DNA from: a virus
Direction: 5' to 3' (one strand)
Virus record (IMG/VR): IMGVR_UViG_3300032285_001216
Coordinates: 1-40,284 of that record
DNA length: 40,284 bases
The position numbers and the translations under genes were made by a program. Below are positions 7,491-19,700 of this stretch, one piece after another. A model generated the notes under the pieces. The model searched no databases. It was not told the origin of the DNA and saw only the letters and a program-made list of their open reading frames with translations. How positions within the stretch are numbered: position 1 is the first letter of the stretch; every line of letters starts with the position of its first letter.

Positions 7491-8088
7491 ACTGTGGGCA
7501 GATGCGTGGAAAGTTTGTGTTGGAGACAAGGATTTAACCAACGCCCGCGTATCAGGCCGAGCAACCAAAGCAAATCCTAACAAGGAAGATGTTGCCCAGT
7601 GGCAAAAGCAGGGCGTCGCTTTTGTAGAGGACTATATCACATGGCGTGAAGCCAATCCTAACTGGAAGATATGGACTACGCCCGATGGGCGCAAGGCTGT
7701 AGAACTAGAACTAGAAGTACCTATCGGCAACATTCCAATCAAGGTTGGTATCGACCGTATCTTTGAGGTAGATGGCCAGTTGGTTATCATCGACTTGAAG
7801 ACTTCTTCTAGTGAGCAGTACCTATCAACGTTACAACTTGGCTTCTACAAGATAGCGATCGAGGTCGCCTATGGCGTGGAGATCAAGTTCGGTAACTTCT
7901 ATATGGCACGCAAGGCTACCATGTCCGAGTGGGTTGATCTTAGTGATTACACCTACGAGAAGTTAGAATACCTTGTGAACCAATTTGACAAATCGAGAAA
8001 GGCTGGTATATTCATGCCTAATGCATCGAGTTGCAAACTATGTGGGTTTAGCAAAGATTGCATGTTCTCATCTAAGAAAGAAGGATAG
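7474..8088 (+). CDS. Split Cas4/RecB-like exonuclease, C-terminal fragment
   Basis: A 204-residue piece with the catalytic part of a PD-(D/E)XK nuclease: VGIDRI (Asp94), IIDLKT (Asp107, Lys109), QLGFY (Gln121) and a C-terminal Cys-x2-Cys-x5-Cys (Cys187, 190, 196) that should complete a 4Fe-4S cluster with Cys25 of the upstream fragment. It starts at TTG 7474 with AGGAG six bases upstream, overlapping the inserted gene by 17 bases. Single-chain homologues process DNA ends during phage recombination or replication. The motifs look undamaged, so selection has probably kept it active. One copy of the GTTTGTGTTGG motif lies inside (7513). Confidence 0.85.
   Translation: MALASELWADAWKVCVGDKDLTNARVSGRATKANPNKEDVAQWQKQGVAFVEDYITWREANPNWKIWTTPDGRKAVELELEVPIGNIPIKVGIDRIFEVDGQLVIIDLKTSSSEQYLSTLQLGFYKIAIEVAYGVEIKFGNFYMARKATMSEWVDLSDYTYEKLEYLVNQFDKSRKAGIFMPNASSCKLCGFSKDCMFSSKKEG
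7513..7523 (+). repeat. GTTTGTGTTGG motif, copy 1
   Basis: Exact 11-mer on the + strand, in the sense strand of the nuclease C-fragment (encoding part of KVCVGD). It belongs to a set of six identical copies. Confidence 0.8.
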
Positions 8089-8089
8089 C

Positions 8090-8275
8090 ATGTCACTAGA
8101 ACTAACTGCAACCGAGGTACTCGGTGCTTTTCAGTTACGCATCATTACAGCAGCAGAAGCGCGTGAGCGCTTAGGCTTTGAGAATGTTCCAGCAGAGGAA
8201 GCGCTTGTGCCACCTGCGGGAGCCGAAGGTATCTTCGCACAAGCAGCAGACAACCCAGGAGTAAACAATGGTTAA
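8090..8275 (+). CDS. Small hypothetical protein
   Basis: A 61-residue protein starting at ATG 8090, one base after the nuclease stop, with AAGGA upstream; a longer in-frame start inside the nuclease is unlikely. Residues 5-30 (LTATEVLGAFQLRIITAAEARERLGF) resemble a short helical segment with an ITAAEARERLG motif seen at the C-terminal ends of phage portal or scaffold proteins. The rest is Ala/Pro-rich. Function unknown; it overlaps the next gene by eight bases. Confidence 0.6.
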   Translation: MSLELTATEVLGAFQLRIITAAEARERLGFENVPAEEALVPPAGAEGIFAQAADNPGVNNG

Positions 8276-8654
8276 TGATGATTGGAAGTTACAAGTCTCT
8301 TACAAGACACCAGTCGGTGATCTTATCAACGTCCGTGCTAACACGGCGGAAGAACTCTCTGTTAACCTAGAAGCCATTGGCGACTACGCTACACAGATTG
8401 CTGCTACTCAGGCTAAGATCGCTGGTGCGTTTACACTCACCCCTTTATCGACGTCGAGTTTCACCGCAAGCACAACGCAGGAAGCATACTCGCCTCCCGT
8501 GTCGGCTCCACCAGCATCCGTTACATCGGGGCCAACATGTCCTCACGGAGCGCGGGTTCACAAATCGGGAATCTCCTCGAAGACGGGCAAGCCATACTCG
8601 ATGTGGGTATGTCCGCTCCCTCAGGGTCCCGAGCAGTGCAAGCCAGTCAACTAA
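8268..8654 (+). CDS. Zinc-ribbon-like replication-module protein
   Basis: A 128-residue protein with an N-terminal alpha/beta region (LQVSYKTPVGDLINVRANTAEELSV...), a Ser/Pro/Thr linker (residues about 60-88) and a C-terminal knuckle CPHGARVHKSGISSKTGKPY ... CPLP ... C. The pattern CPHG-x-x-x-KxGxSxKTGKPY-xx-W-x-C is familiar from actinophage proteins encoded beside helicase and primase genes, probably nucleic-acid-binding. It is followed closely by the helicase gene. A single-strand-binding role is possible, not shown. Confidence 0.55.
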   Translation: MVNDDWKLQVSYKTPVGDLINVRANTAEELSVNLEAIGDYATQIAATQAKIAGAFTLTPLSTSSFTASTTQEAYSPPVSAPPASVTSGPTCPHGARVHKSGISSKTGKPYSMWVCPLPQGPEQCKPVN

Positions 8655-8692
8655 TAGATCAACCAATGTTTTAACGAGAGGAGGGGTAACAC

Positions 8693-9478
8693 ATGAGAAC
8701 TTTAGCGCGCTCTGTTGGCAGGGCATCTATTGGTGGAGAGCCCCTTCCAGTTCCCTTCAAAGCGTTTGAGAGCACACAGATTGCTATCCGACGCTCGGAA
8801 CTAACCATGATGGCTGCTGTCCCAGGCGCAGGTAAGTCTATGCTTGCGCTCGCTATCGCCCTCAAGACCAACGTCCCAACCCTGTACATCTCTGCTGATA
8901 CTAATGCACACACAATGGCAATGCGATTGGCATCTATGATATCTGGCAAGAGTCAGGGTGACGTTGAGAGGCTTCTAACGAACGATCTAGGTTGGACACG
9001 TGCAGTCCTTTCACGAGGCAGTCACATTGTTTGGTCGTTTGAATCTAGCCCTACTCTAGAGGATATTGCTGAGGAAGTCAAGGCCTTTGAAGAACTATGG
9101 GGTCAGGCTCCTGAGTTAATTATTGTGGACAACTTGATGGACGTAGCCACCGATGGTGGCGAGGAGTTCGCTTCTATGCGTGCCATCATGAAAGAACTCA
9201 AGTACCTAGCAAGAGCGACAAATGCTGCGGTGTTAGTCCTTCACCATACCAGTGAGGGAGTACAGGGTACACCTTGTCAGCCGCGCTCAGCACTACAGGG
9301 AAAGGTAGCGCAACTACCAGCACTAATCCTTACCCTTGGATTGGTTGGAACGTCCCTTGCCTGTGCGGTTGTAAAGAACCGTTACGGCAAGGCTGACGCC
9401 AATGGAACTTCGGTCATGACATGGCTGGCCTTCTCGGGTGAGTACTGTTATGTAGATGATATACCAGAGAATGCTTAG
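8693..9478 (+). CDS. DnaB/RecA-like replicative helicase ATPase
   Basis: A 261-residue RecA-fold ATPase with Walker A at 42-49 (AVPGAGKS), Walker B at 142-147 (LIIVDN), and a downstream VLHH motif (LVLHHTSEG) as in the DnaB helicase domain. It lacks the DnaB N-terminal primase-interaction domain and is shorter than full DnaB (about 450 residues), as in other phage helicase ATPases. A KNRYGKA motif near residue 228 matches the VxKNRxG of this family. It starts behind GAGGAGGGG. It should unwind the fork together with the primase genes at 10080 and 10303. Confidence 0.85.
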   Translation: MRTLARSVGRASIGGEPLPVPFKAFESTQIAIRRSELTMMAAVPGAGKSMLALAIALKTNVPTLYISADTNAHTMAMRLASMISGKSQGDVERLLTNDLGWTRAVLSRGSHIVWSFESSPTLEDIAEEVKAFEELWGQAPELIIVDNLMDVATDGGEEFASMRAIMKELKYLARATNAAVLVLHHTSEGVQGTPCQPRSALQGKVAQLPALILTLGLVGTSLACAVVKNRYGKADANGTSVMTWLAFSGEYCYVDDIPENA

Positions 9479-9485
9479 GAGATAA

Positions 9486-9767
9486 ATGAGTAACAAGCGT
9501 AAGGCAGAGAAGCAGGTTGCTGACTTCGAGACATTTCAAAAGGTGTTCATCGAATCAGAGCGTGTGATGCGTGAGAACTTAGAGAAGTTAATCCAATCTA
9601 AGTTAGATAAAGAAACTAATTTCGATGCCAGAATGGCATACAAGATAGCAATTAAGATTATCAGAACGGGGACTTTAAATGATGTCAGTGATCTTGATCT
9701 TCATGCTGATAGCGTGGATGTAGATGGTAACGAGAGCGAGTCACAAAGCAAGGGGGGCAACCTTTGA
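9486..9767 (+). CDS. Hypothetical helical protein in the replication operon
   Basis: A 93-residue, highly charged, largely alpha-helical protein (MSNKRKAEKQVADFETFQKV; then RVMRENLEKLIQSKLDKE) with an acidic tail. No recognisable family. GGAG precedes the ATG, and its last 44 bases overlap the resolvase gene. It is probably co-translated with the helicase and resolvase. Confidence 0.6.
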   Translation: MSNKRKAEKQVADFETFQKVFIESERVMRENLEKLIQSKLDKETNFDARMAYKIAIKIIRTGTLNDVSDLDLHADSVDVDGNESESQSKGGNL

Positions 9768-10083
9768 AACGGACACTAAAGATACGTTCAGAAGCAAGGG
9801 GTATGAAGCCGAACGCTTGGCCCGCACGGGAGCCAAAGATGAAGGTGACGTTATCGTACGGCGCTGGCTCGGATTTGAACACGTGGTTATCGAATGTAAA
9901 GCACCTGGACGAGATGGAAGTATTGACTTATCTGGATGGCTTAGAGAAGCAAGCGTTGAGCGCGGTCACTACGCTGATGCGCGAGGTCTATCTACAGATA
10001 CACTCGGAGTCGCGCTCATCAAAGCACGGGGCAAGTCTATAGAGGATGCGTATCTTGTTATTAGATTGGGAGATGTATTGTGA
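9724..10083 (+). CDS. Hjc-like Holliday junction resolvase
   Basis: A 119-residue PD-(D/E)XK nuclease of the archaeal Hjc-like type used by many phages. The layout is RGATFETDTKDTFRSKGYEAERLAR, then GAKDEGDVIV (catalytic Asp), then VIECKAPGR (Glu-x-Lys). It should cut four-way junctions before packaging. ATG 9724 lies inside the preceding gene with only a weak ribosome site, so coupling is likely. Its TGA overlaps the GTG of the next gene. Confidence 0.75.
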   Translation: MVTRASHKARGATFETDTKDTFRSKGYEAERLARTGAKDEGDVIVRRWLGFEHVVIECKAPGRDGSIDLSGWLREASVERGHYADARGLSTDTLGVALIKARGKSIEDAYLVIRLGDVL

Positions 10084-19498: not shown

Positions 19499-19514
19499 GT
19501 ACGGTATCCCGTAC
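19499..19514. promoter_or_regulatory. 16-bp palindrome, site 8
   Basis: GTACGGTATCCCGTAC with perfect arms, between the promoter at 19552 and the gene start at 19479, the same relative place as site 5. Confidence 0.8.
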
Positions 19515-19551
19515 GGTTCTTGGCTTGGGCTAGTCCTTCGCCAGTACCTCA

Positions 19552-19581
19552 AGTATAGCCGAAGTCAGTCCATTAAGTCAA
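19552..19581 (-). promoter_or_regulatory. Leftward promoter for the 19479 operon
   Basis: On the minus strand TTGACT (19576-19581), an 18-base spacer and TATACT (19552-19557). It shares GGCTTGACTTAA with the 18705-18733 promoter and is flanked on both sides by palindromes (sites 8 and 9). Confidence 0.75.
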
Positions 19582-19597
19582 GCCAGCAAGACTATTC

Positions 19598-19613
19598 GTA
19601 CGGTATCCCGTAC
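19598..19613. promoter_or_regulatory. 16-bp palindrome, site 9
   Basis: GTACGGTATCCCGTAC, perfect arms, 17 bases upstream of the -35 of the 19552-19581 promoter. Confidence 0.8.
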
Positions 19614-19650
19614 ATCAGCCATAATCAGTAATCATCAGCCATCATGAATC

Positions 19651-19661
19651 GTTTGTGTTGG
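19651..19661 (+). repeat. GTTTGTGTTGG motif, copy 5
   Basis: Exact 11-mer in non-coding DNA, 39 bases left of copy 6. Confidence 0.8.
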
Positions 19662-19689
19662 AAAAATTGCCGAACTATTCCGACAAGTG

Positions 19690-19700
19690 GTTTGTGTTGG
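19690..19700 (+). repeat. GTTTGTGTTGG motif, copy 6
   Basis: Exact 11-mer in non-coding DNA, followed by CGGGG; closest copy to the putative origin. Confidence 0.8.

Follow-up and report, generated by a model that had tools for sequence, protein, structure and literature searches.

A conserved polar 11-bp word shared by actinophage genomes as a candidate Chi-like signal

Short asymmetric DNA signals repeated along a genome are known from several systems. KOPS and Ter are polar chromosome signals whose polarity is set by replichore-like arms, and the stoperators of mycobacteriophage L5 type are many copies of an asymmetric site of about 13 bp that follow the direction of transcription. Chi, which belongs to the RecBCD and AddAB systems, is short, asymmetric and G-rich, acts by orientation independently of coding, and in lambdoid phages clusters in the interval from the replication genes to the terminase (PMC3784561). 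E. coli RecBCD reads Chi on entering from its 3' side, tabulated Chi sequences measure 5-8 bp, and in P. syringae Chi occurs once per about 3 kb (PMC5959072). In the account of the actinobacterial AdnAB that we drew on (PMC4824097), Chi regulation is stated as unknown and no Chi-type signal is established. Here we describe an 11-bp word, GTTTGTGTTGG, in the 40,284-base virus record IMGVR_UViG_3300032285_001216 of IMG/VR (this whole stretch is called the window). The word shares with Chi the features listed above, but is 11 bp long, shows no excess in the bacterial genomes searched and has a reader that is only conjectured. Like L5-type stoperators it is a many-copy asymmetric site in an actinophage genome, but its polarity follows the genome map and its sites lie deep inside genes. 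Its arm-wise polarity recalls KOPS and Ter, which are read by FtsK- and Tus-type proteins and which it does not resemble in sequence. Freshwater actinobacteria are very abundant, yet little is known about DNA-end handling, recombination and replication in their phages; a conserved polar word common to unrelated actinophages offers a handle on that machinery and may mark host range.

The word occurs in six exact copies on the + strand of the window and in none on the - strand, at the positions reported in an earlier note on this DNA (Table 1), and a count on both strands returned no copy with one mismatch. A first-order Markov model predicts 0.025 copies over both strands (P of at least six, about 4e-13), while shuffled versions of the window held a mean of 0.96 matches at up to one mismatch, with 0/100 shuffles reaching six. 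It is the commonest 11-mer of the window; the runner-up, a CAG-type codon repeat, has five copies. By context the copies divide evenly into sense, antisense and non-coding, two of each, a directly observed independence of gene direction. Protein code, which the earlier note had called insufficient, was rejected as an explanation because the frames and strands of the copies differ and the synonymous sites are frozen, and an mRNA element was rejected since copies are both sense and antisense. A literature search for the 11-mer gave no phage paper among the matches listed, as judged from titles and the beginnings of abstracts.

Conservation of the word at the DNA level was observed directly in relatives. 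Among 28 records selected by terminase, three carry it (seven copies in G002, five in G004 and two in G003), and the loss from close relatives that would have spoken against the earlier note was thus not seen. The DNA of G002 and G004 is about 66-80% identical to the window in the longer aligned blocks, and the word copies in the exonuclease and sigma-factor genes are letter-identical. Of the 151 degenerate codons that encode a conserved amino acid across seven exonuclease sequences, 27 are invariant, while the three codons of the word are the same in 7/7; fully conserved eleven-base windows number 3/602, and the base directly after the word varies. Five sigma-factor sequences gave 31/139 identical degenerate codons and 5/671 fully conserved eleven-base windows, with the word intact and its three codons identical in 5/5. 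Records selected by exonuclease or sigma factor contain the word in 19/30 and its reversed control in 0/30. In deeper relatives the exonuclease copy lies at the opposite end of the gene and on the opposite strand, and the transglycosylase-like gene of relatives holds the word at other positions; copies at non-homologous places, a check that the earlier note had proposed, were therefore found. Judging by these shifted copies, the presence and orientation of the word are kept and its places turn over. The comparisons indicate that the word is real and under selection at the DNA level. A self-overlapping pair of GTTTGTGTTGG with period 10 was found in 42 stretches of the viral collection, of which 38 match window-family proteins and four are without match. 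An exonuclease scan of genome contigs recovered zero relatives, and a pattern of two words 0-30 bp apart was discarded, 187/198 pairs being multiples of 6 in low-complexity repeats.

To map polarity, 17 word-bearing genomes of the window's family were placed relative to the terminase gene. The arm from helicase to terminase holds 58 + copies and 0 - copies, and the arm from the terminase round to the exonuclease holds 22 - copies and one + copy (in G045). On both arms, as these counts directly show, the words point off the exonuclease/helicase region and toward the terminase side. The one-strand placement described earlier holds within the window and not across the family, where copies change strand near the exonuclease and again at the terminase. 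A binomial value of 7e-23 for 80/81 copies overstates this polarity because many copies are homologous, the number of independent places being about 17 by eye. In a de novo unsupervised word scan of eight far-clade genomes GTTTGTGTTG ranked first, all 39 of its copies having this polarity, and the variants GTTTGTGTCGG and GTTTGTGTTGA mostly have the same polarity as the word. Word density is highest between the replication genes and the terminase. In the mapped genomes the tandem cluster is usually found 1.2-1.6 kb to the left of the terminase gene (0.3 kb in G489). For a replication iteron, a directly repeated array at the origin, the sites speak both ways: many relatives have a tandem pair left of terL, and most sites are scattered singles. 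A logo of 44 dereplicated sites displayed a sharp 11-bp block with flanks of at most 0.26 bit.

One relative, G030, has an early module of the window's type (exonuclease 71%, helicase 84%) and zero exact word copies. It carries six copies of a variant that keeps the core of the word, TTTGTGTTG, with 6/6 on one strand and one at the identical sigma-gene offset, and this variant looks like a signal whose recognition may have changed along with its reader. Gene co-occurrence was assessed in 14 near-complete word-bearing and nine word-less family genomes. The amidotransferase and the amidoligase are each present in 14/14 word-bearing and 0/9 word-less genomes, a phosphoesterase in 14/14 and 1/9, and an HNH-like protein, by BLAST clusters, in 12/14 and 0/9. 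With a hidden Markov model (HMM), HNH was detected in 17/17 word-bearing family genomes and in 1/15 word-less ones, namely G030 with its variant word. The HNH-like protein of the window has an HNH-type signature; its Pfam match is weak (E 0.004, below the cut-off), and its structure model is of low confidence and too weak for a fold search. The protein of window 19784-20365 was rejected as a word binder, as it was not found in the word-bearing G489. No clear replacement polar word was found in the word-less G044, G047, G048, G052, E7, F5, G011, G017 and G021. The word-less L487, L504, G044, G047, G048 and G052 repeat TTCTCCTGTC at many places; it is the complement of the ribosome-binding-site-like leader GACAGGAGAA and by its sequence is a start-associated repeat.

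The word is also shared with a second, unrelated actinophage group. An HNH scan outside the family yielded contigs without match to the helicase, exonuclease, terminase or amidotransferase of the window. When these contigs were searched whole, 16/22 contained the word, with 59 copies against one copy of the reversed control and strand counts such as 6 to 0, 5 to 0 and 4 to 0. Twelve of the outside contigs were fetched; 9/12 have a common terminase of another type and 4/12 a WhiB match. In the nine contigs with a located terminase, 34/41 copies run opposite to terL and 7/41 along it. A further sample was drawn by the second-group terminase instead of HNH, comprising 24 longer contigs (at least 16 kb, many of them fragments) from 80 loci, with G819 belonging to both samples. 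It contained the word in 15/24 and HNH in 9/24 contigs; the word was present in 8/9 HNH-positive and 7/15 HNH-negative contigs (Fisher p 0.08, many contigs being fragments). HNH is only a candidate reader of the word, since 7/15 contigs of this group have the word without HNH and p is 0.08. That unrelated groups of freshwater-actinobacterial viruses carry an unchanged one-directional word suggests a hidden DNA-handling signal.

Bacterial genomes were searched in samples of 36 mixed genomes, 394 Actinomycetes (many of 1-1.6 Mb) and 296 of the class of an Acidimicrobiales bacterium; two genomes were double-counted, leaving about 724 distinct, and one further order of six is already within the 394. 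The earlier note had proposed measuring word density in candidate hosts. The word was not enriched in these samples, its counts lying near those of the reversed control, and a classical host Chi is therefore not supported by the genomes sampled. The top count was 15 (G506; 12 and 3 by strand, against 4, or 2 and 2, for the control), and other outliers were G745 (1 and 8), G767 (8 and 1) and G744 (6 and 4). The outliers G182 (7), G477 (6) and G352 (2) were rejected as cases of host Chi, their copies lying mostly in large repeated modules that, from their giant open reading frames (ORFs) and repeated codons, look like peptide-synthetase genes. Known Chi is far denser, as in P. syringae.

The reading that we favour, with a probability somewhat short of even, is that the word functions in the manner of a Chi site, as an orientation-dependent signal in DNA-end processing, recombination or replication. 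DNA ends would arise left of the terminase gene, at cos or pac, and a helicase-nuclease or similar machine travelling along the phage DNA from that end would meet and read the word. A correctly oriented word would then alter the degradation of the end, its recombination or its use in replication restart, with protection or recombination following the reading. If the ends do lie left of the terminase gene, all right-arm + and left-arm - copies stand in the active Chi orientation by the E. coli rule. The reader may be phage-borne or may belong to a host lineage outside the sample. Two properties expected of a Chi site were found, namely a short asymmetric sequence repeated far above chance and an orientation-dependent arrangement, the latter judged from sequence polarity and presumed genome ends. 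Over-representation in the host was lacking in the genomes sampled, outside which the true host may lie, and because of this the word, while acting like Chi, is not filed as a Chi site. Thus the Chi-like or replication signal suggested earlier is supported by the strand bias, the selection, the polarity and a location between the replication genes and the terminase gene, but not in the form of a plain host Chi. Several points weigh against the Chi-like reading. Of the mapped genomes, 11/17 (G488 to G496, G498 and G499) were picked for a close word pair; the + copy of G045 sits in the late region and breaks the arm rule; the window, G002 and G004 each have one + copy within the first 100 bases of the exonuclease, contrary to that rule; and the second group mostly keeps one polarity along the genome, with no convergence on terL. 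The word is longer than the tabulated Chi sequences and is not enriched in the bacterial genomes searched, and the location of cos or pac is presumed. A rather unlikely proposal is that of a phage-owned Chi-like code, in which an 11-bp polar word common to unrelated actinophages would tag phage DNA to be recombined or protected at its ends and would co-evolve with a phage-borne or mobile reader, as the variant word of G030 may reflect.

Chief among the rivals is a signal of replication polarity, either a polar fork barrier or a loading site for primer or helicase, whose orientation would be set by the direction of replication and not by DNA ends. The words diverge near the exonuclease and helicase genes and converge at a terminase-side AT-rich region with DnaA-box-like repeats, and the uniform polarity of the second group is compatible with one-way replication; yet cumulative GC skew, rejected here as a replication marker, follows gene strand and not the word switch points, and no known 11-bp signal of such type matches, so that we hold this explanation unlikely. 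Alternatively, the small HNH protein could recognise the word and nick one specific strand there, thereby initiating replication or recombination. Its HMM distribution (17/17 word-bearing and, leaving G030 apart, 0/14 word-less family genomes), the outside contigs found through it and its HNH-like signature all agree with this, but the HNH-negative second-group contigs that carry the word, an amidotransferase/amidoligase pair that accompanies the word just as closely within the family and the weak domain assignment make the proposal quite unlikely.

A phage transcription regulator with the word as its operator or stoperator would account for an asymmetric many-copy site and for a cluster of copies that adjoins a terminator-like hairpin. 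The sites are nevertheless deep in genes, both sense and antisense, where stoperators would be oriented by transcription and placed in or near intergenic gaps, and their polarity tracks the map. No second conserved block at a fixed spacing, as a sigma-factor promoter would require, appeared in the flanks of the 44 sites, which led us to reject a promoter, and an operator seems to us very unlikely. The least probable explanation, clearly doubtful, is a classical host Chi of an actinobacterial lineage missed by the genome samples. The word is common to unrelated actinophages, and it is absent from the Planktophila phage of this family that was isolated on a known host, so the word-bearing phages may have another host; against this, the genomes searched reach a maximum of 15 copies, and counts above a handful are, with few exceptions, near controls or in large repeated modules.

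The window has the gene content of a tailed phage, with terminase, portal, endolysin, Cas4/RecB-type exonuclease, DnaB-like helicase, primase, sigma factor, RusA-like resolvase and WhiB, the last a marker of actinobacterial phages. The Planktophila phages LanE43AprE7 and AprF5, isolated on a Nanopelagicales host (PMC10202952), belong to the same family, with 46% identity in the terminase and 54% in the exonuclease. Terminase, exonuclease, WhiB and sigma factor are common to both, whereas these phages have zero word copies, no HNH gene and no amidotransferase/amidoligase pair, all of which the window has. The terminase of the window is 68% identical to those of G011, G017 and G021 and 46% to that of G033, while its exonuclease (60%) and helicase (79%) match G033 and reach only about 36% and 40% with G011. 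The window genome is a mosaic, with a structural module from a word-less lineage and an early module from a word-bearing one.

Table 1 Word copies and associated features of the window
Feature	Positions	Strand	Remark
Word copy 1	7513..7523	+	Sense in the Cas4-like exonuclease gene, KVCVG codons
Word copy 2	13599..13609	+	Sense in the sigma-factor gene; G030 variant word at the same gene offset
Word copy 3	15862..15872	+	Antisense in the transglycosylase-like gene; copies of relatives elsewhere in this gene
Word copy 4	19011..19021	+	Antisense in a small leftward ORF of 52 amino acids
Word copy 5	19651..19661	+	Non-coding, cluster left of the terminase gene
Word copy 6	19690..19700	+	Non-coding; corresponds to the tandem-pair place in relatives
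Exonuclease, phrog_1870, Cas4/RecB-like, C-terminal part	7474..8088	+	Near the flip point of word orientation
Small HNH-like protein	12149..12442	+	Present in every word-bearing family genome examined
Glutamine amidotransferase and cysteine-rich amidoligase gene pair	16495..18629	-	Co-occurs with the word
AT-rich non-coding region with DnaA-box-like repeats, left of the terminase gene	20440..21130	.	Words converge here; putative origin and cos/pac role
Terminase large subunit	21131..23044	+	Reference point of the polarity map

All six word copies lie left of the putative origin, as had been noted earlier, since the DnaA-box-like cluster near 20,490-20,530 is to their right. Window 20485-20530 comprises two copies of TGTGGATAA and one of TTATGCACA, adjoining the very AT-rich non-coding DNA that precedes the terminase gene, and is a possible origin. 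The phrog_1870 exonuclease homology is divided over two ORFs, with the N-terminal part at 7072-7284 and the C-terminal part at 7474-8088, and the primase homology is spread over two ORFs that overlap in differing frames (10080-10454 and 10303-10926). Neither a tRNA-type att site nor known RNA elements were found in the window. A further repeat, the palindrome GTACGGTATCCCGTAC / TACGGTATACCGTA with close forms, extends over window 13863-20461, mostly in gaps between leftward genes (for example at 19499, 19598, 20446, 18661, 17514, 16144 and 13863), and from its sequence and placement looks like an operator family.

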